Source: Streptomyces sp. XD-27 (GTDB taxonomy: Bacteria > Actinomycetota > Actinomycetes > Streptomycetales > Streptomycetaceae). From it: DNA of 64,000 bases. The notes beneath the pieces are model-generated. The model was not told where the DNA came from and did no database searches. It saw only the letters and a list, made by a program, of their open reading frames with translations. Position numbers and translations under genes: made by a program. The stretch lies in contig NZ_CP130713.1 in NCBI RefSeq assembly GCF_030553055.1, positions 1-64,000 of the forward strand, given 5' to 3'. This document shows positions 756 through 18,869 of the stretch, piece after piece. How positions within the stretch are numbered: the stretch's first letter is position 1; each line of letters begins with the position of its first letter.

Positions 756-998
756 TCAGAGCTGCTTGTGCATCCAGGTCGGGAAGCGGTGGGTGCAGCT
801 GGGGCAGTACAGGCGGTGCTGGATGGTCTGCCAGCCGAACGCGGTGGCCTTGACGTAGTGGGTCTCGGAGGCGTCGCAGGAGGCGCACACGGGCTGTTGC
901 ACGGTGGGTTCCCTCTGCTGGGCGGGCTCGGGGTGTGCCGGTCGGCGGGTCGGATACGGCAGGCGACGGGCCGGGCGGCGCACCGCGCGGCCCGGCAT
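756..998 (-). CDS. small zinc-ribbon-like protein, unknown function
   Basis: This predicted 80-residue protein starts 8 nt after the stop of the Tpg-like gene, so it probably forms the last gene of that operon. The N-terminal 35 residues are Arg/Pro-rich and low in information; the true start may be an internal GTG. The C-terminal half carries two CxxC knuckles (CASC and CPSC) separated by about 24 residues with aromatic residues between them. This is the pattern of a zinc ribbon of the kind seen in small DNA- or RNA-associated proteins. I do not recognise a specific family. The position next to replication-like genes suggests an accessory role, but that is inference. Confidence 0.5.
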   Translation of the reverse strand: MPGRAVRRPARRLPYPTRRPAHPEPAQQREPTVQQPVCASCDASETHYVKATAFGWQTIQHRLYCPSCTHRFPTWMHKQL

Positions 999-1006
999 CG
1001 CAGGGT

Positions 1007-1645
1007 TCAGGCTCCGAGGCCGACGTAGGAGACGTAGGTGTAGGCGCCCCAGTCGCTGTCGAGGTCGCTGATGACGTCGTCCCAGATCTCCTCGAGCTTG
1101 TCGGCGTCGCCGGCGGCCATGGCGTCGACGGCGTCGTCCCAGATGTAGCGGACGGCGGGAAGGGCGCGGATGCCCTGGTCACCCATGAGGTTGCGGCGGC
1201 GAGCGTGGTCGTCGACGAGGTCCTGGTTGATGGGGTGGATCTCGACGGGGGTGCCGCGGCCGCGGTTGTTCAGGTGCTGCTTGAAGGCGCCGAGGTTGCG
1301 CAGCACGTTGTGGGCGCGGAGGTTCCAGTAGGCGGTGTCGATGAGGTCGAGGTTGGCTGGGCGGGGGTGTTGGGTGCCGGCGAACCAGTTGTTCATGGCG
1401 CGGTCCCGCACGGTGACGCCGGCCGTGCGGAGGGCCTGGCGGCCGGCGTCGCTGTTGAGGTAGTTCAGGCGGGCGCGCAGGCCTCGGTTGGTGGTGACGG
1501 CGGAGCGGATGCCGCCTTCGCGGATCTGGCGGGAGAGGGCTTCCTCCATGGCCTGGCCGAGGGCGCGGCCGCCGCGGATGTTCTCCGGTGAGCGGCCGGC
1601 GCCGAAGGCGCCGAAGTTGCGCCAGCCGCTGTCGTCGTACGGCAT
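1007..1645 (-). CDS. Tpg-like HTH protein (candidate telomere terminal protein)
   Basis: The protein has 212 residues. Its ATG lies 3 nt after the TAA of the large upstream gene and is preceded by a G-rich ribosome-binding stretch, so the two are co-transcribed. Residues about 45-100 have the layout of the Streptomyces terminal protein Tpg: an R-L-x-YL stretch, a helix-turn-helix around 'AGVTVRDR', then a WxxGxxxHPRPA segment. The C-terminal third is acidic (DDAVDAMAAGDADK). In Streptomyces, Tpg is covalently attached to DNA ends and primes end patching; tpg lies directly downstream of tap. The same order here, after a Tap-like C-terminus, supports the assignment. The similarity is judged by eye and is distant. 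A plasmid-type HTH regulator is the alternative. Confidence 0.45.
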   Translation of the reverse strand: MPYDDSGWRNFGAFGAGRSPENIRGGRALGQAMEEALSRQIREGGIRSAVTTNRGLRARLNYLNSDAGRQALRTAGVTVRDRAMNNWFAGTQHPRPANLDLIDTAYWNLRAHNVLRNLGAFKQHLNNRGRGTPVEIHPINQDLVDDHARRRNLMGDQGIRALPAVRYIWDDAVDAMAAGDADKLEEIWDDVISDLDSDWGAYTYVSYVGLGA

Positions 1646-1648
1646 CGG

Positions 1649-4600
1649 TTATTTCCCCCCGAGGGTGTACAGGCGCTTTTCCTTCATTTCGGCTGGCATG
1701 CGGCCTTCCTTGAAGACCTGTCGCCAGTCGCCTCCGGCGACATGGAGCTCGTCAACACCGGATACCTGGACCAGGATAAGGCCATTCTGATGGGCCTTCC
1801 ATGCTTTCAGCCAGAGGCTTGCGTTTGCCTGGGAGCGGATGGTGTGGACCCACTCGGGTCGGCGGATCTCGCTGTTCTTTGCTGAGTGGCCGATAGTCGA
1901 GGTGAACTTCGAATACATGGCCTTGACGTATTCGATCGTGGCCGTGTCGTCGTTCTCGATCGCGGTCTGGCGGGCTTGCTGGAGGACCCGGCGGAACTTC
2001 TCCAGCATCGCCTCGGAGGCGCCGGAGGTCCAGGACTCCAGGATCCGCGGGGCCTCGCACAGGTCCAGGTCGTGGCAGCGGATGAGGAGGCGCAGCGTGG
2101 CGTCGTCGAGGTAGTACGGGCCTGGCTCGATGCGGTTGCCGAGGGGGCTGGGCAGGTGGGGGTGGGTCCATTCGAAGTGGTCAACGCGGTGGATGCCGGC
2201 GCGGCGGCGGTCGAAGCCGCCGGTGGAGTCGTGCTGGAGTGTGCCGATGGGCAGGTGGGTCTTGAAGGCCGAGAGGTAGGCCGCGTTCGTGTCCAGAGCT
2301 GTCACGTCCACGGGGTCGTGCGTGCCCTTTTTGATTGCGGAGGCGAGGGGTTCGTTGCGCCATTTATGGCGGGCTTCCCATACCTCGTCGGGTTCGCCCT
2401 GGGAGGGCTTGGCCAGGAAATCGAGGGAGCGGGGGTAGGCGGTGTGGACGTAATTCCCGCCGACCCGGGTCAGTTTGAACAGGGCCATCGAGTCCGGCAC
2501 GGCTTTTCGGACCAGGGCCTTGGTCGCGGCTTCCACGTCCCCGTCGTGCTCTTGGAGGGCCTGGTCCACCGCGTCGGTGATCTTGTTCAGGAAGAAGGTG
2601 TAGACCCGCGCGCTCGTTCGGCTCGCCGGGACGTCCGCGTCCGGCGGCGCGGTCGTGTCTTGGAACACCGCCGACGGCAGTTCCTCGGGCGCCTCCGGCG
2701 CCTCCAGGGGTCGGTCGGCCTGCTCGCCGGGCGCAGCAGGCGCGGCGGCGGGGGCTGCGGGGCGGGCTCGGTGACGCTCAGCGCCGCGACGGCCGCCGCG
2801 GGTGCGGGCGGGAGGGCGTCGGGGGCGATGCCGGCCGCGGCCGCGGCGGCGGCGTAGGCGTCCAGTGCGGCGCGCAGGCGGGCGGCGTCGGGGGTCTTGG
2901 GCAGGCGCAGGCGCCGGGTGGCGAGCTCGGCGGCCCGGGCCCGGGCCGCGGGCAGAGCGCCAGTGTTCTCGGGCTGCTGCGCGGCCCGGAGCGTGTGGAG
3001 CACGTTCGTCGCGGCCGCGGACAGCTTCTCCGGTCCGCTCGTGAACACCGCTGCCGCGTCCAGGAGCTCGGTCTCGACGGCCGCCAGCCCCGCGTCCGGC
3101 CCCGGAGCGGCCGGGGCGTCGACGGGCTGTGCGTCGGCGGGCTGCGGGAAGCGCATGGGCCAGGTCCCGGCCCACCGCGGAGCCGCGGCCGAGGGACCCG
3201 GGGCGGGCGCCGTGGACGCGGGCGCAGCAGGGGCGGAGTACGCGGTGGCGTAAGCCGCGAGCGCGGCCTGAAGACGGGCGCCTTCAGGGGTGTCGGGCAT
3301 GCGCGGGGTACGGGCGGCAAGGTCGGCCATCGTCCGGCGCAGCCCCGCCAGCACGGCGGCCTGCTCCGGCTCCGGGCGCGCACCGGCCGCCACCGCCCCC
3401 TCGCGCTCGCCAACGGCGGCGGTGGGGGCGGCGGAGGTGGTGGTGGCAGTGCGGGCGTCGCGGAGAGCGGCCATCGTGCCCGTCAGCCGCGCCGACAAAC
3501 CGCCCTGGGCCCCGGCGAGGAAGGGGAACGCCGCCTCCAGGAGCTCCACCTCGGCCGCCTCCAGGCGCTCCCCGGCGACCGGCGTGGGGGCGGGGGCGGT
3601 TGTCGAGGAGCCGGGCCCGGTGTGTGCGACGGCCGGGCCGGTGGGCGGCGCGGCCACGGCACCCCCGGCCGGGGCGGCGGGCTCGGTGTCCGCGGGGCCG
3701 GCGGGGGCCTGCGGCGCAGTGGCGGCGGTCAGGCCGGGGGCAGCGGGCTCGCCCGGGTGGGCGGGGGCGGAAGTGGCGGGGCTGTGCGGGCCGGTGACGG
3801 CCTGTCCGGTCACCGGCCCGCACGAGGGCCCAGCAGCGGGCTCAACGGGCGCGTACGGGGCGGGGAGAGTCGTTGAGGCGGGTCCGGGGCCGTGCGCGGC
3901 GGGGCGGTCGGTGGTGCTGGGGCGCTGGGTGCCGTCCGGGTGCCCGGCGTCGTCGGGGCGGTAGCCCTGGGCGGCGGCGTACTCAAGGAAGGCGGTGAGC
4001 GCGGCCGCCAGGCGGCGGCCGTTGGCGGTGTCGGGCAGGTGCGGGCCGTGGGCGGCGGCCTCGGTCACCGCCCGCTGGGACGAGGAGAGCTCGAGGTCCT
4101 GGGCGTCGAAGCGGCGGACCAGAACGGGCAGGACCCCGCGCAGGTCTTCGGGGAGCTCGCCGAGGGCGCCGGGCTCCGTGTAGGGGCGTGCCGCGGTGAC
4201 GACGTCGGCGGTGACCGCCTCGCCCTGCTGGCCGGCGAACGCGCGCATGGCGTCGAAGCGCGGGACGGGCTCGGTGAACCGGGCGCGGGCGAGGTCGGCG
4301 GTCAGCGGGAAGGCGGCCAGGTGGCCGAAGTCGCGTTCTGCGACGGTCAGCTCGGCGTGCTGACGGCCGCGGGGGAACGTCAGGGTCAGGGTGAGGCCGG
4401 GCGCGAGCGCGGCGATGGCGTCGGGGTCGTCGGTGTCCAGCGCGGCCAGGACGGGGACGTGGTGGGTGCGGGCGAGGTGGGCCAGCGCCCGGGCGGCGGC
4501 CGGGAGCGCAGGGCCGGACAGCGGAATGGCGGGGTCGTGGGCGTGCTGGAGCCGGTCCACGACCACCAGCGCCAAGCCCTGAACGTCCGGCACGGTCTGC

Positions 4601-7336
4601 GCGATCGCGTCGGCGGTCAGACCCGTGCCGTCATCGATGAGCAGCGGCGCACCGGCCAGCTGCGCACGCACCCCGGCGGCGGCCTCGAGCTCGGCGGCCG
4701 TCAGGGCACCGGTGCGCAGGCGGCGGTAGTCCACCGGTGTGTGTGCGGCGACGATCCGCGCGGCCACGTCGTTACGGGTCAGGCCCGAAGCGGCGTAGAG
4801 GACGGGGAGGTTGTGGGTCAGGGCGGTGTGACGGGCGGCCGCGGCGGCAAGGAGGCTTCCCCCGGCGCCGGGCGCAGCGGCGATCAGGGTCAGGCGGCCG
4901 GGGGTCAGGGTGGCGAGCGCGTGGTCCAGGGCGGGCAGACCGAACACGACGGGGCCATCCGCGCGGGGGGTGGTGGTGGCCGGGGTGGCGGGGTCGAGGA
5001 GTTCGTCCAGCACGGTTGCGAGGCCCTGGAGGCGACGAGGACGCGACACCACGGCCGTGGCCTCGGGCACGGGGGTGGGGGTGGGGGTGGTGTCGCCGGG
5101 CCCGGGTGAATTGTCGGGCGCAGCAACAGCGGTGGTGTCCGGGGTGGGGGCGACCCCGGGCGCGGCCGGCTTGCTGACGACGTTGCGGGTGGGAGGCGGG
5201 GCGCTGTCAGTGGAGGGCTCGTCGGCTGGCGTTGTCAGGGAAGTCGCTGCAGTGGTCGGCGGTGTCGGGGCGGCGGGCTCGGCGGCGGCCGGAGCCGGGA
5301 ACGCGGGCGCGGGCGGGACGGCCGTGTCGGGGGTGCCGGGCGCGGCCGGGGGCGTCGTTGCCACGGCACCGGGAACGGGAGCGTCCAGGGCAACGTCGGC
5401 GGGGAGCAGCGTGGCGGCGGGGGCGGCACCATCATCGTCGGCGACCGGTGGCGGCGTCTCGGCGGCTTCGGGAGCGTCGTCCTCGGGTGCCGTCGGCGCA
5501 GCGGCCCGGGCGGCACCGCGCGCAGCGGCGGGGGCGGGGCGGGGGAAGGTGCGGCCGGGGCGCCCGACGGCGCATCAGTCCCCTCTCCCCCGCCGGTTAC
5601 GGAGGCGGGCTCCACCGGAACGGGCAGGCCTTTGCCGGGCGCAGCCGGCCGGGTCGGCCCGGTGTCGGCAGGGACGGCGTCGGGGCCGGCCAGTGGGCTC
5701 ACGGGACGCGAGGGCGCCGGGTCCGGGGCTGGTGGTACGGGCGCCGGGGGCGTGGTCGGCGCCACGGACGCGGGCGCGGGCGGGTGCGCGGGCCCAGCCG
5801 GGGCAGCGTCGGCGGGGGCGGCTGCGTCGGTGGGGGCGGCGGACGCCACGTCACCAGCGGTCACGGGGGTGGCCGGGGCGCCGGGGGCGGTGGCCGGGGG
5901 CGTGCTCGCCTCCGGCGCCCTGCCGGACGCGACGGGCGCGGAGGCGCCGGACCCTGCCGGGGCGGCCGGGGCGGCGGCGCCGTCCGTGGGCAGCGGGGTC
6001 CCGGCGGAAGCGGATACCGCCGGGGCACCAGGACCGCCGGGGCCGCCGGGGCCGCCGGGGCCGCCGGGGCCGCCGGGGCCGCCGGGGCCGCCGGGGCCGC
6101 CGGGGCCGCCGGGCACAGTGATAGGGCCGCCGTCGGCAGGGAGCAGCGCGGCATCGAGGAGGACCGCGACCGGCGTCGTCCGGTCCATGAGCACCTGCGG
6201 GACTCCTGGGGCCTGGGGGGTGCCGGCCGCGGCGGCGACGAGGTCACCGAGCTTCGGGCGGGCCTTCGTCCGCGGCCACGACGGCCACGACCCCACACGC
6301 GCACGCGAGTCCGCGTCCAGACGCCCCAGCGGGACCAGCGCCGCGGTCAGCTTGCCCTTCCAGATCAGCGTCACCCGCCCCTCATCGCTGGCGGCGTCCA
6401 CCAGTTGATACAGGCGGGGACGAGCCGCGGACACCAGCAACGACACCGGCTCATCGCCGGAAGACGCCGCAGCGCCGGGCGCGGTCGCCAGCACCCCCAC
6501 CCCCTCAACGCCCCCAGCAGCAGCGGGAACGGGAGCGGGAGCGGCAGGAGCAGCGGACGCCGAGGAGTCCGTACCCGGCACGGCAGGCGCGGCAGCGGCG
6601 GGAGAGATGGCCGGCGGACGGCCGGACGCGGCCGGGTCCGATGCGGCAGCGCGGCCGGGGGCGGCCAGGGTGTCGGGGGCGGCCAGGGTGTCGGGGGCGG
6701 CGGTCTCCGGGCCGGGCACGGTGGCGGGCAGCGGTTCCCGCGACGTGGCGGTCAAGCGGTGGCGGATGAGCACATGTGATTCCAGGTTGGCCAGAGCGGG
6801 ACGCTGAAGGATGTCCTCGAGGCGGTCGTCACCGGCCAGGACCAGGGGAAGCGGTCCGGTACCCCGTGCGCCCACAGTCCGTAGAGCAGCTCCAGGGCGG
6901 TGGTGCGCAGTTGGTGGGCGTCGGGCACGATCACCAGACGTGCGCTCCGCCGGAGCTCCGCAGCGATCAGTTCCTCGGCGTCGGCCAGGACCCTCGGCCG
7001 GGAGCGGTGCCGGTCAAGCCCCAGCGCGGTGTACAGGGCGCGGACCATGGCGGAGCGGTCCCGGGGTGCGTCCGGGCGCACCCACACCACCGTCGGGCCC
7101 GGGGCCGTCACCGGGTGTGCCGCGAGAGCGGCCCTCACCACAGTGCCCGGGGTGGAGCCAGGGCCGGTCACACAGCCGATCGCCCGGTTTGTGATGACTT
7201 CCCGGAGATCCTCTGCCAGAGGAAGAACCGGAAGCGCCGCAGCGGCGGAGGCGGCATCCAGACCAGAAGCCGGGGTGGGGACGGGAGACGCGGGCGCAGC
7301 AGCGGCGGGGTCCTGCGGCGACGACGCGGGAGACAT
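1649..7336 (-). CDS. giant Tap-like replication protein: TniB-like + DnaB/RecA-like + Tap/polymerase-like domains (three frameshifts)
   Basis: Three open frames join into one 1,896-residue protein if one base is restored in each of three G-runs: 6845-6848, about 5530-5545, and 2750-2754. The start ATG (7336) has GGAG 6 nt upstream. Residues 1-215 resemble a TniB/TnsC ATPase, with a Walker-A-like GPGSTPGT lacking Lys, Walker B LVIVPDA, then LVLAGDDRLEDIL. A long Pro/Ala linker with GPG repeats follows. Residues about 790-1010 resemble the DnaB/RecA ATPase core; here too the P-loop (APGAGGSLL) lacks Lys, and Walker B reads LALVVVDRLQ. More linker follows. Residues about 1575-1896 resemble Streptomyces Tap and protein-primed polymerase motifs: LDTNAAYLSA (motif A-like), KAMYSKFTSTIG (B-like) and SGVDELHV (C-like). 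It is followed by a Tpg-like gene, as tap is by tpg. A telomere/replication role is inferred. Catalysis is doubtful given the degenerate P-loops. Confidence 0.55.
6034..6113 (-). repeat. 9-bp tandem repeat encoding Gly-Pro-Gly
   Basis: About nine copies of a 9-bp unit (GCCGCCGGG on the plus strand) encode a collagen-like GGP tract inside the linker of the giant Tap-like protein. Units are nearly identical, which suggests recent slippage expansion. The tract separates the TniB-like and DnaB-like domains. Confidence 0.85.
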
Positions 7337-8204: not shown

Positions 8205-8620
8205 ACCAGCCTCGAGCCTGCAGACCTGCACCTGCCGAGACACCGACCACAACCACGCAACGCATGACGGCACAACCGGCGAGCACAGACCACAACAACA
8301 ACGCCCCGGCACGGGAGTTGAGTCACCCCCACCCAGACACGTAACACCCTACCCTACCCGACCCGTAACAGACGGCGCCAGCGACACAGACGGGGACGTA
8401 ACAAATCGAACGAGGGGGCGGGGGCGGGACCGGCAGGGACAGGCCGAAGGCCCGCAGGCCCGGACCGGAGGTCGGCCGGCAAGACATGACCAACGCAGGG
8501 CAGAAGCCCGGGACTCGGCCGGCAGACCATGAACCCGGGCAAAGCACGGGAGAGCCGCTACAAACCGTCGGGGGCCGGAACACCCAGCCAGCAGACACAG
8601 AACAACCGGCTTGGAAGGCC
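8205..8620. other. noncoding stretch after the ATPase homology ends
   Basis: From 8620 down to the DUF6283 start, no frame gives a recognisable protein. The open frame continues by chance to 8323. The stretch presumably holds the promoter of the leftward DUF6283/Tap-like genes, but I could not pick a convincing -35/-10 pair. Confidence 0.4.
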
Positions 8621-9543
8621 TCGAGCAGGGCGCGGTCGGCGGCGTCCGTGCGGTTCGTCAACGCCGTGGCGGGCAGACCGAACGCGGTCAGCAGCTGCGG
8701 CAGGGCCGGTTTCACCGCCACCAGCGCTTGGTGCACCGGGATCCGGCGCGGCAGCAGCCGCAGCGCCTGATGCACCGCGACGGTCTTGCCGTGCCCAGGG
8801 TCCCCGTACACGCACACGATCCCGTGGGCGGCGAAGGTGTGCGCGAGTGCCTCGGTGACAGCGCCGAGCTGCCGCGTGGAGACGACGTGCGCGCCCGGTA
8901 CGTACAGACGCGTCCCCTCGGCCAGTGGCGAAGCAGGGACACGGCCGGCGTCCTCGTGGGTCTCGGCCGGCACGGCGACGGCGGGCGGGGCCTGGCCCGT
9001 CTCGTCGATCGTGCCCAGCAGTGCCAGCTCGGCCAACGCCCGGTCATAGGCGGCCGGATCGACCCAGGCATAGCCGGGACGAGAAAGGTCAAGGACACGG
9101 CCCGCACGCCGTTGTCGGTGCACCGCCTCATGCAGCGTCGTCAGCGACGGCAACCGGTCCCGGCCCGCAGCGGGAAGCACCTCATCGACGTGCTCGGTCA
9201 TCCAGCGATGCAAGGCCTTCACGTTCCCGCCCAGCTCCCCAGCCGGGCCCACAACGCGTCCGTCAGCGTGAACGCGGAACGCCGCCGGGCAGGTTCCAGT
9301 GGCCCGCCGTTCTCCGCCACTGCTAGCCAACGCCACACCGTCCGCACCTGCCGACTGCGCAGCAATCCGGACATGCACCGTCTGCAGCGTTCCGGCCTCG
9401 TCCAACGCGAGAAGACGCCGCACCACCACAGACCGCAGCAGCGCCCGGTTCCGCGCCCTGGTGACGTCAGCCGGCCTTTCGCTCCCCGCCACAAGCGTCG
9501 ACACCGGCATCGGCGATGGTGAGGAAGACGGATCAGCTGTCAT
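8323..9543 (-). pseudogene. damaged TniA-HTH/TniB-like ATPase gene, truncated before Walker B
   Basis: The frame opens with ATG at 9543. Between about 9370 and 9235 the protein-like signal moves to another frame, which carries a TniA-type helix-turn-helix (VRTVWRWLA) and then FTLTDALWARLGSWAG. It returns to the first frame at NVKALHRWM and PSLTTLHEAVHR. Two missing bases near 9360 and one in the CCC run near 9232 would restore a single frame. An AAA+ ATPase start follows with an intact P-loop (YGDPGHGKT). Homology stops at DRALLEAF (about 8620), before Walker B; the remaining 100 codons are low-complexity and look noncoding. Such proteins normally help select target DNA in Tn7/Tn5053-like transposition. 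This copy looks decayed. Confidence 0.5.
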
Positions 9544-10521: not shown

Positions 10522-11661
10522 TCAGCGGCCGCGCCGCCTCATATAGAGGTCGAAGGCCCGGTAGACCATCCGCCGCAGCGGCAGGTCCCACTCACCGACG
10601 TACCGCGTCGCCTGACCGCCGGTGCCGACTTTGAACTGAACAAGGCCGACGTGCGGGTCGTCGGCGTCGAGGGTGGGGGTGATGCCACGCAGGTCGTAGA
10701 CGTCGCAGCCGGCCGCGAGCGAGTCACGGATCATCGCCCACTGGCAGGCGTTGGAGGCACGCACCTCGCGCTTCGCGGTGGAGGAGGCGCCATAGGCGTA
10801 CACAGCGTGGGCGCCGACTCGGACCAGGACCGTGGCGGCGGCCAAGTCGCCCTGGTGGCGGGCCAGGTAGAGCTTGATCCGCTCGGGGTCCTCGGCACTC
10901 AGCGCCGCGAACATGGTCTCGAAGTAGCGCAGCGGCCGGGGTGTGAAGTGGTCGCGCTCGGCGGTGTGGACGTAGAGGTCGTGGAACGCCTTGAGGTCCT
11001 CCGGGCCCCCGTGGCCGACCGTGACCTCGACTCCCTCCTTGGCCGACTTCTTGATGTTGCGGCGCCACTGCTGGTTCATGCCCCTGAGCAGTTCGTCCTC
11101 GGTCCTGCCTACCAGCGGGACCTCGTACTTGAACTGTGGGTGCCCGACCCCGAACCCGTCCTCCGGGCTCTGCGGCAGCCAGCCGGCGCCCCGGAGCCTG
11201 CTGGCCACGCGGGCACCGACCGGGTCGGTCCAGTGGCCGGTGATGTCGGTGAGCCGTTTGCGGCCCGGGTCGGCGATGCCCTCCTTGACCTGGGCGGCGC
11301 TCCAGGTGTGCGTGCGCACCGGCGGGCCGAGCCGGATCGCGAACGCGCCGTGGGCCTTGAGGTAGGCCGCCAGCGGATCGAGCCAAGCACCGATGTCGCC
11401 GCTCCAGTCGATGACCGGGCCCTCGGGTAGATACGCCAGCGTGAAGCGGTCGAGCCTTGGCACTGGGCGGTGCAGTACGAGCCCAGCACCAACCAGGTGT
11501 CGCCCCTCGAACCAGCCGAGGGACTCGCTGCGCCACTCGGTCTTGACGCCGCCCCATGCCGGGGTCTGCAGAAAGCTGACCGACCGCTGGGCCCGTACGA
11601 ACGCCATGTGCTCGGCGGCGGTGATCGGCATGACCACCGGTTTCACGGCTGTGGATCGCAT
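10522..11661 (-). CDS. femX: FemABX-family peptidoglycan bridge aminoacyltransferase (FemX/VanK-like)
   Basis: The protein has 379 residues, typical of FemX/FemAB enzymes, which add an amino acid from aminoacyl-tRNA to the stem-peptide lysine/diaminopimelate of lipid II at the inner membrane face. It has two GNAT-like halves with FLQTPAWGGVKTEW near the N-terminus, NQQWRRNIKKSAKEGVEV in the middle and the C-terminal stretch YDLRGITPTLDADDPHVG followed by FKVGTGG; these are family hallmarks. In Streptomyces coelicolor the FemX-like VanK is needed for glycopeptide resistance because it accepts D-Ala-D-Lac precursors. Its position at the edge of a glycopeptide cluster suggests a role in self-protection, but vanHAX is not next to it. 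A housekeeping FemX copy is the alternative. Confidence 0.85.
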   Translation of the reverse strand: MRSTAVKPVVMPITAAEHMAFVRAQRSVSFLQTPAWGGVKTEWRSESLGWFEGRHLVGAGLVLHRPVPRLDRFTLAYLPEGPVIDWSGDIGAWLDPLAAYLKAHGAFAIRLGPPVRTHTWSAAQVKEGIADPGRKRLTDITGHWTDPVGARVASRLRGAGWLPQSPEDGFGVGHPQFKYEVPLVGRTEDELLRGMNQQWRRNIKKSAKEGVEVTVGHGGPEDLKAFHDLYVHTAERDHFTPRPLRYFETMFAALSAEDPERIKLYLARHQGDLAAATVLVRVGAHAVYAYGASSTAKREVRASNACQWAMIRDSLAAGCDVYDLRGITPTLDADDPHVGLVQFKVGTGGQATRYVGEWDLPLRRMVYRAFDLYMRRRGR

Positions 11662-11894
11662 TGCTTCGCTGGGGGGTTGAAGGACATGTCATCAGTCAAT
11701 GTAGTGGGGTGTTGCCGGGGTGTATGCGATTCTCGATATGCCGACGATATGTCACCCTCGGCGGCTCAGGAGCTGGTTCCGGCCACCACCGGCCGGTGGC
11801 TCCAGGGCGGGGAGCGGAATTCGGCCGCTCCGCGCCACTTCGGCGGCCGGCCGCAGCCGCCCCCGGCCACGTGTCTGCGGCGGGTACGCGCACA
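11662..11894. other. short intergenic region, presumed femX promoter
   Basis: This 233-nt gap lies between femX and the antiporter, which run in the same direction. No frame shows motifs. It probably contains the antiporter terminator and the femX promoter; neither is clear enough to place. Confidence 0.4.
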
Positions 11895-13226
11895 TCAGTG
11901 CATGTCGGTGGTCGTCAGGGGGCGTGGTGCCGGTGCCGGAGGGGGCGCTTCGCTGCCCAGGGACAGCTCCAGGTGGTGCGGGAGCGCCCGGCGGTACAGT
12001 GGCAGGACCGCAGCGCTCGTGATGACGGCGACCATGACGAGAACAGAGAACACCGGCTTGGTGATCAGGCCCTGTGCCAAGCCGATGTTGATGAAGACGA
12101 TGATCATCAGGCCGCGGGCGTTCATCAGCCCTCCCACCGCGAAGGCCTCGCGCCAGCTGAAGCGGAGTGTCTTCATGGCCAGGGCGCTGCCGAAGTACTT
12201 GCCCGCGAATCCCGCCAGGAGCGCGGCGACGCCGAACAGCAGGGTGTGGGCCGAGAGGCTCCGCAGGTCGGTGGTGAGGCCGGACAGGGCGAAGAAGACG
12301 GGCAGCAGCAGCGTGGAGACGGTGTCCATCATCCGGCTGTGCAGCGCTTGGCGGAACTGCGGGTCACGGGGCATGGCCAGGCCGGCGATGAAGCCGCCGA
12401 AGACCGAGTAGATCCCGATCAGATCGGTGACGTATCCGCAGACGATCGGGACGATGACGACGACGTACATCGCGCCGGGACTCAGCGTGCCCTGTCGGCC
12501 CACGTGCCGTGCCAGCGGCCGCAGCAGCCGGGACACTCCGAGCAGCATCACGACGGTGAACAGGACGCTGTAGCCGATCATGGGCAGAGCGTCGGCGGCC
12601 CCGGAGCCGGTGTGCACGGCCGTCAGCATGGCCAGGAAGCACCAGGCCGCCGCGTCGTCGATCGAGGCGGCGACCAGGGACAGCCGCCCCAGGCGGGAGT
12701 TCTGCAGGCCCCGCTCGTACAGCATGCGGGCCAGCATGGGGAGCGCTGTGAGGGACAGCGCACCGCCTACGAAGAGGGCGAACTCCCACCGGCTGACGTC
12801 CTCGCGCGAGACGTCGTCCCACATCAGCAGGCCGACGAGACCGCCGAGGACGAGGGAGGGCACGAACCCCGAAGCGGCGAGGACCGCCGGGTGGTGCTTG
12901 CGATCGGACTCCTGACGGCTGTGGTCGAGGCCGGCGCCGACGAGGAACATGTAGAGCGTCAGGCCGATGGTGCTCAGGACGTACAGCACCGACCGTGCCT
13001 CCGCCGGGAAGACGTCCGCCTGGAGATCGGGTGCCAGCCAGCCGAAGAGGGTCGGGCCCAGCAGGATGCCGGCGATGATTTCGCCGAGCACCCGTGGCTG
13101 TCCGAGCATGACCGCGAGCCTGCCGATCACGGCCGCCGCGAGCAAGATGACCGCCAGTGCGGGAAGCACGTCGAGCGCCAGTTCGAGGTTGCTGTCGCGC
13201 ACGGCCAAGGACATATGGTCCTGCAT
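11895..13226 (-). CDS. CPA2-type monovalent cation/H+ antiporter
   Basis: The membrane protein has 443 residues and about 12-13 hydrophobic segments; it belongs to the Kef/NapA-type cation:proton antiporter group. Early residues show the typical helix with LGQPRVLGEIIAGILLGP, followed by FLVGAGLD and later VYVVVIVPIVCGYVTDLIGIYSV-type helices and NARGLMIIVF. Unlike KefB/KefC it has no large C-terminal nucleotide-binding domain. Homologous antiporter genes sit in the balhimycin, chloroeremomycin and A40926 clusters, where a role in export or ion balance is assumed rather than shown. It lies downstream of dpgC in the same direction, with about 215 nt and a hairpin between them. Confidence 0.85.
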   Translation of the reverse strand: MQDHMSLAVRDSNLELALDVLPALAVILLAAAVIGRLAVMLGQPRVLGEIIAGILLGPTLFGWLAPDLQADVFPAEARSVLYVLSTIGLTLYMFLVGAGLDHSRQESDRKHHPAVLAASGFVPSLVLGGLVGLLMWDDVSREDVSRWEFALFVGGALSLTALPMLARMLYERGLQNSRLGRLSLVAASIDDAAAWCFLAMLTAVHTGSGAADALPMIGYSVLFTVVMLLGVSRLLRPLARHVGRQGTLSPGAMYVVVIVPIVCGYVTDLIGIYSVFGGFIAGLAMPRDPQFRQALHSRMMDTVSTLLLPVFFALSGLTTDLRSLSAHTLLFGVAALLAGFAGKYFGSALAMKTLRFSWREAFAVGGLMNARGLMIIVFINIGLAQGLITKPVFSVLVMVAVITSAAVLPLYRRALPHHLELSLGSEAPPPAPAPRPLTTTDMH

Positions 13227-13399
13227 GGGAATGGGGTCCCTTTGAGTCGGGTGCCAAAGGCTGTCGTCAGTGAGCCCGCTCGCCCGGCCCCGGTCGGCAC
13301 CGCGAGCCGCACGTGCGGGTCGGCCTCGGCGTTGCTCCAGGCCTCGCCGAGGCCGACGTGCGCGGGCCGGTGGGGGGCGGTCAGCCCCTCGGGCCGGTC

Positions 13400-13418
13400 A
13401 AGGGGTGACATGCCCCTT
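13400..13418 (-). terminator. hairpin downstream of dpgC
   Basis: A 6-bp stem (AAGGGG / CCCCTT) with a 7-nt loop lies 25 nt past the dpgC stop codon. It probably ends or weakens the dpg transcript before the antiporter gene. Confidence 0.45.
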
Positions 13419-13442
13419 CTTGACGTACGTACTGGATGCGGG

Positions 13443-15404
<1,962 letters not shown>

Positions 15405-15408
<4 letters not shown>

Positions 15409-16505
15409 CACTGGATCAGCGCCGTCTCGATCGAGGATCCGGGCCCCATGGTCATCAGCACGCCGTAGTCGCCTGGCCGGGCGACGTCCTCTTCGGCCAG
15501 TCGCTCGTAGGAGAAGATGAAGGAGCCGCTGGAGAGGTTGCCGTAGTCGCGGAGCACGCCGGTGGTGTGCCGAGCGTCGTGCCGGCTCAGGCCGAGGTTG
15601 ACCACGACGGCGTCGATCACCTTCTTGCCGCCGGAGTGCACCAGCCACTGGCTGATGTCGCTGCGGCGCAGCCCCGTTCCGGACAGCAGGCGGTCGACGA
15701 CGATCTCGGCGTGCGCGCCGACCACGTAGGGGATCTGCGGGTCGAGGAAGAAGCTGAACCGGTCCAGTTGCCGGTCCCATTCGTAGCGCATCGCGTCGAT
15801 CGCGTCGGTGATGATGTAGCTCGCGAACTTCAGCACGCGCGGGCCGGGCGCCCTGCCGTCACCGGAGGTGACGGCGAGGGCGGCGGCTCCTTCGCCGAAC
15901 AGACTGTTGACCACCGCGGTCCGCATCGTGCCGTCCAGGGCATACGCGGCGGAGCACGCCTCGGTGCACAGGACGACACCGAGTTCGCCCGGGTGCGCCG
16001 CGGACCAGCCCGCGACCACGTTGAGCGCGTTCAGACCCGCGTTGCATCCCATGCCCACGATGTCCGAACGGCTGCAATGCGGATCTATCCCGAGTTCCCG
16101 GATGATCAGCGCGCTCAGGCCGGGAGTCAGGAAGCCGGTCGAGGTGACGCAGCACAGGTGACGCAGGTCCTCAAGACTCGACCCCGCCGACTTCAGGCAG
16201 GCCTCGAGCGCACGGCACCCCATGTCGACGGCGATCTTCTTGTGTTTGTCCAGCAGATCGCCCTGGGGTTCGGGTACGCGCACTCCGCCGGGGCCCTCCG
16301 GCGGAAGCGTGAGAAAGCGCCGGTCGATCGCGCTGTTAAGGAAGACCGAGCGGATCTTGGGGTCCTCGATGTCGAGGATGTCGAGCAGCTCGGATTGCGA
16401 GTACGAGGTGTCGGACACCGCGGTCCCGACCCCTGCGAACCTGGTGATCTCGGTGAGTCCGGTGAGAACGGAAAGATCCGCCGCCGGAGCGATACTGGTA
16501 GTCAT
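15405..16505 (-). CDS. dpgA: type III polyketide synthase DpgA
   Basis: The protein has 366 residues. DpgA condenses four malonyl-CoA units to a cyclised C8 product, the precursor of 3,5-dihydroxyphenylacetyl-CoA, committing carbon to Dpg. It has the chalcone-synthase-type Cys-His-Asn triad: Cys about 154 in VGMGCNAGLNAL, His in WLVHSGGKKVIDAV and Asn in VLRDYGNLSSGS. The C-terminal MTMGPGSSIE loop is also typical. The ATG at 16505 overlaps the stop codon of an upstream 22-codon small ORF and has only a weak ribosome-binding site of its own. dpgB follows with a 4-nt overlap. The Dpg specificity of module 7 fits. Confidence 0.95.
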
Positions 16506-16570
16506 CGATACATCCAGCCCCATGTCCTGAGCTTGCTACGGCGTACTGGCTTTATCTGTGACGCGGTCAT
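16502..16570 (-). CDS. 22-residue small ORF coupled to dpgA
   Basis: A strong ribosome-binding site (AAAGGAG, 6-7 nt upstream) precedes ATG at 16570. The frame encodes 22 residues: a basic middle (PVRRSKLR) and an aromatic end (TWGWMYR). Its TGA overlaps the ATG of dpgA (ATGA). Because dpgA has little ribosome-binding sequence of its own, ribosomes ending this small ORF probably re-initiate at dpgA. It could be a leader peptide sensing aromatic aminoacyl-tRNA supply, a coupling device only, or a functional small peptide. I do not know of a named homologue. The signals are seen directly; the role is inferred. Confidence 0.6.
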   Translation of the reverse strand: MTASQIKPVRRSKLRTWGWMYR

Positions 16571-16689
16571 CAATCTCTCCTTTCGCAGATATGGATGGGC
16601 ACGGTGAACGCGGCTCGGCCGCCTCGTGCTGGCGAGGGCGGGCATTCCCGAGGTATCGAACGCCGGACGCCGGCGCCTCTCGCGGAGCA

Positions 16690-18869
<2,180 letters not shown>

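Follow-up and report, generated by a model that had tools for sequence, protein, structure and literature searches.

A Tap/Tpg-like operon at the end of a Streptomyces chromosome contig: a probable telomere end-patching system with a predicted phi29-like polymerase domain

What is the task of a two-gene unit that lies at the end of a Streptomyces contig, whose large gene places ATPase-like and helicase-like parts ahead of a C-terminus resembling the telomere protein Tap, and whose small gene resembles Tpg? The unit belongs to Streptomyces sp. XD-27 and lies in a window (the whole stretch of DNA analysed) of 64,000 bases, comprising bases 1-64,000 of the single 7,549,390 bp contig NZ_CP130713.1. 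Because the window consists of the contig's first 64,000 bases, the operon lies at one end of a contig as long as a chromosome, in agreement with a preliminary description of this DNA that had considered a place near a replicon end or on a linear plasmid possible. In the pairs Tap with Tpg and Tac with Tpc, nucleotides are added to the terminal proteins in vitro, according to the available part of PMC4513846. We consider that the operon probably patches the telomere ends of linear replicons in streptomycetes, Tap/Tpg-like in its working but forming a separate family; given its homology to Tap, it is expected to add nucleotides for a telomere class of its own.

The evidence begins with the C-terminal domain of the large gene (positions 1652-2584, minus strand). 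Pfam and NCBIfam models detect nothing significant in this C-terminal piece, but a profile comparison aligns the domain with Tap (NF047542) over 238 columns (E 1.6e-7, probability 93.9), and by sequence comparison it is homologous to the C-terminal half of Tap. The predicted structure of the domain is a polymerase palm/fingers fold, and a structure search links it to protein-primed polymerases, although 8 of the 30 viral matches at E<=0.001 are not named polymerase. The Tap-like C-terminus with polymerase-like motifs put forward in the preliminary description is thus strengthened by both the homology and the fold, and the outcome named there as refuting it, structural searches without any relation to Tap, Tpg or protein-primed polymerases, did not occur. 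The model aligns with phi29 polymerase residues from 122-179 to 493-503; judged by what we take to be the domain boundaries of that enzyme, the exonuclease domain is absent and the thumb uncovered. Motif A, LDTNAAYL (2273-2296, minus strand; Asp98 of the cropped domain), aligns with FDVNSLYP of phi29 polymerase, motif B, YVKAMYSKF (1904-1930, minus strand), with LNSLYGKF, and motif C, SGVDELHV (1739-1762, minus strand; Asp278), with DTDSIHL. The residues D98, K221, Y224 and D278 stand in register with the phi29 motifs and are invariant in all 75 sequences. A search of PDB sequences with the domain returned one insignificant chain, and its profile version only helix-turn-helix (HTH) proteins and unrelated chains. 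From the predicted model, the domain looks like a stripped-down, exonuclease-less relative of the phi29 family-B DNA polymerase. A phage origin of the domain was considered and dropped: no match was found in the phage collection, and neither P0307 nor archetypal Tap has a relative in IMG/VR. A distant group of the same domain (P0307-P0344; profile E 5.7e-26) consists of many metagenome proteins of ~270-370 residues, several on contigs of 13-19 kb that are perhaps small linear elements; its motif A, DRNGSYPSA, is nearer to that of family-B polymerases.

The second gene (positions 1007-1645, minus strand) is an open frame for a predicted terminal protein of 212 residues, matched in 152 plasmid records (alignment A8). 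Family models of Pfam and NCBIfam give no significant match to it. The HTH part of its family resembles that of six archetypal Tpgs weakly (E 1e-4, probability 57%, 72 columns), and the proposed likeness to Tpg holds in layout and, faintly, in sequence. The two-gene order recurs: all 11 plasmid records fetched for the domain carry the label linear, and a homologue of the second gene, 190-212 residues long, comes directly after the domain gene in every one. Relatives are encoded in 289 stretches of genome contigs, of which the 80 best were retained and 52 of those 80 examined; a Tpg-like frame is the longest one straight after the polymerase gene in 44 of these 52 loci, while a different, longer frame occupies that place in seven and none in one (L092). 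The model of the Tpg-like protein has a predicted local distance difference test score of 88.2, and a PDB fold search with it gave no match (best E 2.2), which is not evidence of a new fold. Ser197 is invariant in 26 of 26 sequences and usually lies beside an acidic residue. The available part of PMC3572947 likewise describes an acidic residue adjoining the priming serine of the phi29 terminal protein, and by this analogy, since Ser197 is both invariant and flanked in the same way, we predict it to be the primer residue.

The large gene is less tidy than its neighbour. Similarity to relatives (tblastn of L032, L003, L007, L041 and L059) runs on the minus strand from 7228 down to 1652 across three frames, in segments at ~7228-6842 (frame -3), 6989-6114 (-2), 5058-2842 (-1) and 2728-1652 (-3), and the GC content by codon phase changes over near 2700. 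The pieces were searched separately, with the frames left unjoined. The three frames had been read as one protein of 1,896 residues; single-frame relatives align across the interval, and the joined protein itself remains a prediction here. Counted from the first possible start, the open frames of relatives reach 1,674 (L032), 1,419 (L040), 1,241 (L041), 1,010 (L048) and 2,060 residues (L059). It is conceivable that the parts are instead made separately, with a stand-alone polymerase of ~340 residues from an internal start and separate upstream proteins, and database proteins of 339 residues (P0001, from the XD-27 genome itself) and 342 residues (P0002, P0003) do begin within the gene. We judge this improbable, in that single frames of 1,010-2,060 residues cover all the parts in relatives, and P0003 is named S. 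stelliscabiei, a species of which another contig (L040) holds the frame of 1,419 residues. Programmed readthrough was also considered and rejected: five matches are marked with one TAG, and in the two that were read (L116, L118) this TAG is the stop codon that closes the polymerase gene immediately ahead of its Tpg-like neighbour.

Three modules precede the polymerase-like domain. An AAA_22-like ATPase domain (6881-7186, minus strand) scores 21 bits against a Pfam cut-off of 27, and the same family matches the relatives L003 (E 1.1e-8) and L059 (E 1.2e-16). The N-terminus had been likened to TniB; the ATPase similarity stands at the AAA_22 level, but the Pfam scan of the window pieces lists no TniB family. 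A Phd/YefM-like module missed by the preliminary description follows (6327-6434, minus strand), at 22.1 bits in Pfam (cut-off 29.8) and 22.4 bits for NCBIfam TIGR01552 (cut-off 20.8). The DnaB-like middle is recovered clearly as a DnaB_C domain (4444-4944, minus strand; 69.7 bits, Pfam cut-off 27), while NCBIfam DnaB models stay below cut-off on this piece; it also contains LVVVDRLQ. Both P-loop-like stretches, GPGSTPGT in the N-terminal piece and LTLIAAAPGAGGSL in the DnaB-like domain, lack the Walker A lysine, as had been noted. The linker at ~6030-6113 has a GPGGPGGPGG-type repeat run, a collagen-like low-complexity stretch. Relatives in databases often bear names such as acyltransferase or dihydrolipoamide S-succinyltransferase, probably a misannotation via the Pro/Ala-rich linker.

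Relatives differ in the content and order of these modules: Phd precedes AAA_22 in L032, and L003 and L059 carry several AAA_22-like stretches. In a tree of 52 domain sequences, where branch support was not examined and five of the DnaB labels were preset, 28 sequences come from DnaB-containing forms; most fall in one clade, alongside the DnaB-less L002, L057 and L060, with further DnaB domains outside it in L012, L081 and L010/L011. In L009 the same C-terminus is joined to a complete DnaB that keeps its Walker A lysine (TIGR00665 424.5 bits, cut-off 385.25; NF005852 508.7 bits, cut-off 780), and L009 is the only one of 18 scanned proteins with the Walker A pattern, a lysine-less P-loop-like stretch being recognised in eight, the window's among them. 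The L009 fusion lies at 4279-7050 of NZ_CP109057.1, ~1.8 kb from the end of a linear plasmid. L137 (NZ_CP108436.1, 2771-5776) joins an archetypal-like Tap (39.5% identity) to what its annotation calls a DnaB-like protein, a second lineage with a fusion of the DnaB-Tap kind. From these sequence comparisons, exchange of heads has probably happened on more than one occasion. The fusion had been put forward as a possible new architecture; with DnaB-containing forms so widespread it is no isolated case, and a helicase-like Tap protein has a precedent on pRL2, whose candidate telomere proteins are a Tap- and helicase-like protein and a Tpg-like protein (Zhang et al. 2006, as cited in the available part of PMC8743542). 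Another idea is that the operon serves transposition or conjugation and simply tends toward ends. Its ATPase-like part is AAA_22-like, and one plasmid (L004) encodes a TniB-family protein and a Mu-type transposase ~5-7 kb away; yet the polymerase domain keeps its Tpg-like partner from locus to locus, whereas the AAA_22, Phd and DnaB-like modules are present in some relatives and missing from others, and the domain is homologous to Tap, which leaves that idea very unlikely.

The distribution of the family was compared with that of Tap. The XD-27 genome holds one copy of the window family; there the Tap model NF047542 (cut-off 600 bits) reaches 27.5 and 17.7 bits elsewhere and nothing at the window, and the Tpg model NF047541 (cut-off 90 bits) has no match at E<=0.01, against three of three control genomes over cut-off. 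Across 295 genomes of the genus, Tap occurs at E<=1e-20 in 226 (197 over the NF047542 cut-off) and the window family at E<=1e-6 in 121, giving 161 genomes with Tap only, 56 with the window family only, 65 with both and 13 with neither (Fisher p 8e-15). When Tap is restricted to the 203 of 226 genomes with best E under ~1e-100, picked by hand from the listed E-values, the numbers become 159, 77, 44 and 15 (p 2e-24); the genomes being related, both p-values serve as a guide only. A sample of the phylum (296 genomes, 198 genera) gave five matches, all in the same genus. The domain also matches 144 plasmid records, from Streptomyces (133), Kitasatospora (6), Streptantibioticus (2), Embleya (2) and [Kitasatospora] (1). 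In 60 of these, sampled down the ranking, it lies at most 5 kb from an end in 17 records, against 5.1 expected, and its relative position is skewed toward the ends (Kolmogorov-Smirnov p 6e-8). In single-contig genomes among the highest-scoring matches the domain lies 1.7-14 kb from an end, at both ends in G129, G049 and G068 and at one end in G080 and G000; Streptomyces cyaneochromogenes MK-45 has the family at both chromosome ends (L048, L050).

One subfamily co-occurs with one class of telomere. Plasmid pSGZL is among the replicons with Sg2247-type telomeres, and end-patching proteins for this class are described as elusive in the available part of PMC8743542. PLSDB marks the pSGZL record as circular; its opening 250 bases match 35 plasmid records, the best place in each being ~27 bp or less from the record end, and pSGZL encodes an HTH-type member of the window family (E 1.1e-127). 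Among the best 60 of 143 matches to that member, 23 of the 28 closest records (>=71% identity) belong to the 35 Sg2247-ended ones, against none of the next 32 (59-62% identity); another 12 of the 35 fall outside these 60 and cannot be counted as negative, and one of them, NZ_CP108282.1, has a fragmented match to the domain. At the species level, S. rimosus, S. albidoflavus and S. cattleya carry family members, and the same three species are reported with Sg2247-type telomeres in the portion of PMC8743542 available. The G129 end (L113) has TCC- and TAC-loop hairpins at 7-21 and 30-46, and pSGZL has hairpins at 8-22 and 30-46; given these similar positions, the L113 and pSGZL clades may have related telomeres.

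At the XD-27 end itself, the contig's first 11 bases (1-11), TTGCTCCGCAA, fold as a hairpin (TTGC-TCC-GCAA, TCC loop) and exactly match the middle part of a hairpin (45-61) in the end of the linear plasmid of Streptomyces sp. NBC_00280 (L002), the best plasmid match; this is probably a truncated last telomere hairpin. Hairpins with a stem of at least 5 are absent from the first 150 bp of the window. Over 150 bp of each of 16 replicon ends, such hairpins number 4-6 in five ends (L113, L116, L004, L009, L130), two in two ends, one in two and none in seven including the window's, while mononucleotide shuffles average 0.0-0.8.

Several results weigh against the proposed reading. Motif C reads GVDE rather than DTDS, with one Asp instead of two; the link to Tap weakens with other alignments (E 3.5e-5, probability 72%, 114 columns), and the distant A6 group reaches E 0.0043 and probability 8%. 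Profiles of protein-primed polymerases do not match the domain significantly (hhalign E 0.18, 0.11, 0.052 and 0.024), archetypal Tap reaches E 0.48 against the same polymerases with no alignment of motifs, and PF03175 has no match in the window pieces or the XD-27 genome, nor did any control genome exceed its cut-off. The 65 genomes with both systems and 13 with neither fit poorly, the median distance of the domain from a record end is 32 kb in the 60 sampled plasmid records, and the association of telomere and gene is not independent evidence throughout, since related plasmids share both by descent. The terminal inverted repeat that the preliminary description had proposed to seek was not found when the outermost 20 kb at either contig end were compared, and contig linearity is for that reason deduced from relatives and gene content. 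Finally, the large gene is split over three frames in the assembly.

The last point could mean that at this chromosome end the gene has decayed into a pseudogene, so that the family patches telomeres elsewhere while this strain depends on something not detected in the analysis. The gene lies in three frames while rpoB of the same genome is one open frame, so the assembly is not broken everywhere; genome completeness of 96.92%, on the other hand, leaves room for sequencing errors, and the copy in the window could be either decayed or affected by such errors. The polymerase-like domain and the Tpg-like frame are each unbroken and retain their motif residues, and the genome has no second family copy and no Tap or Tpg over cut-off. 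We hold decay to be a possibility, though a doubtful one; the copy may be, or may recently have been, functional.

On the end-patching reading, bidirectional replication would leave a 3' overhang at the telomere, whose folded form is probably recognised by the large protein's head, which is Phd-like here and an HTH in many shorter relatives. The DnaB-like domain, its Walker lysine absent in this clade, would be an inactive ring that probably acts as scaffold or loader. The C-terminal phi29-like palm would then start synthesis by placing the first nucleotides onto a hydroxyl of the Tpg-like protein, extend briefly and stop early, with host polymerases completing the gap. The observations are that the C-terminus is homologous to Tap and has the predicted fold of phi29 polymerase with its motifs conserved, that the two genes recur together, that the family is enriched toward replicon ends, that one subfamily co-occurs with one telomere class, and that the genome has no archetypal Tap or Tpg over cut-off; telomere binding, catalysis, the priming residue and the part played by the DnaB-like domain would reach beyond homology, predicted fold, position and co-occurrence. 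More broadly, we lean modestly toward a picture in which the Tap-type proteins of Streptomyces, whether archetypal or otherwise, make up a cellular branch of the protein-primed family-B DNA polymerases. They would have shed the exonuclease, and probably the thumb too, and taken on interchangeable heads for telomere recognition, with one group carried on a DnaB-like ring that is dead as an ATPase; the window family would then be the machinery so far missing for patching the ends of Sg2247-type telomeres and related ones.

Around the operon, a small frame with two Cys-x-x-Cys pairs (756-998, minus strand), perhaps a zinc-ribbon protein, lies on the contig-end side of the Tpg-like gene. On the other side, an ATPase-like frame (8323-9543, minus strand) has an intact-looking P-loop, GDPGHGKT, and matches AAA_16 and AAA_22 only below cut-off; its last third is not coding-like, and it is possibly broken too. 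Frames at 10522-18869 (minus strand) resemble, by eye, parts of the hydroxyphenylglycine/dihydroxyphenylglycine pathway and a FemABX-like protein, which we take to recall glycopeptide-type antibiotic clusters.

In the open-licence literature, our searches found no report tying Tap to phi29 or family B, applying AlphaFold to terminal proteins, naming proteins for Sg2247 or describing DnaB-like terminal proteins. As far as these searches show, and within that literature, the phi29-type identification, the modular AAA_22/Phd/DnaB-like heads and the Sg2247-type telomere link are new. With a phi29 palm predicted and two aspartates named in it, the catalytic mechanism can be put to a direct test. 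The family is a concrete candidate for the end-patching proteins of Sg2247-type telomeres and for the novel Tpg/Tap pair of S. albus J1074, yet to be identified according to the available part of PMC3937824; the two-gene unit probably completes the copying of chromosome tips and could explain the upkeep of one class of bacterial telomere. A protein-primed polymerase on a helicase-like scaffold, with an apparently intact DnaB in L009, would be a new design of telomere replication machine.

Compared with Tap/Tpg (NF047542, NF047541), the window operon shares the two-gene order, a homologous C-terminal Tap half and a frequent place near replicon ends, with a faint similarity to the HTH part of Tpg, but it scores below the curated cut-offs, has a Phd/AAA_22/DnaB-like head instead of an HTH, and its partner's C-terminal part cannot be aligned with Tpg. 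In the available text of PMC4513846, Tap and Tac are called DNA polymerases, no polymerase motif is given for them, and family-B polymerases are said not to be encoded by Streptomyces. Unlike phi29-type polymerases, the domain has ~310 residues, no exonuclease domain, one Asp in motif C and no significant sequence score. Compared by description only, in the available parts of the sources, the pRL2 proteins would form the same kind of Tap/helicase-like and Tpg-like pair, and Tac/Tpc of SCP1 and GtpB/GtpA of S. griseus (PMC4513846, PMC7205883) are likewise non-archetypal pairs with the same proposed task. With the replicative helicase DnaB, finally, the window protein shares the DnaB_C domain, but neither the Walker A lysine nor a full-length model match.

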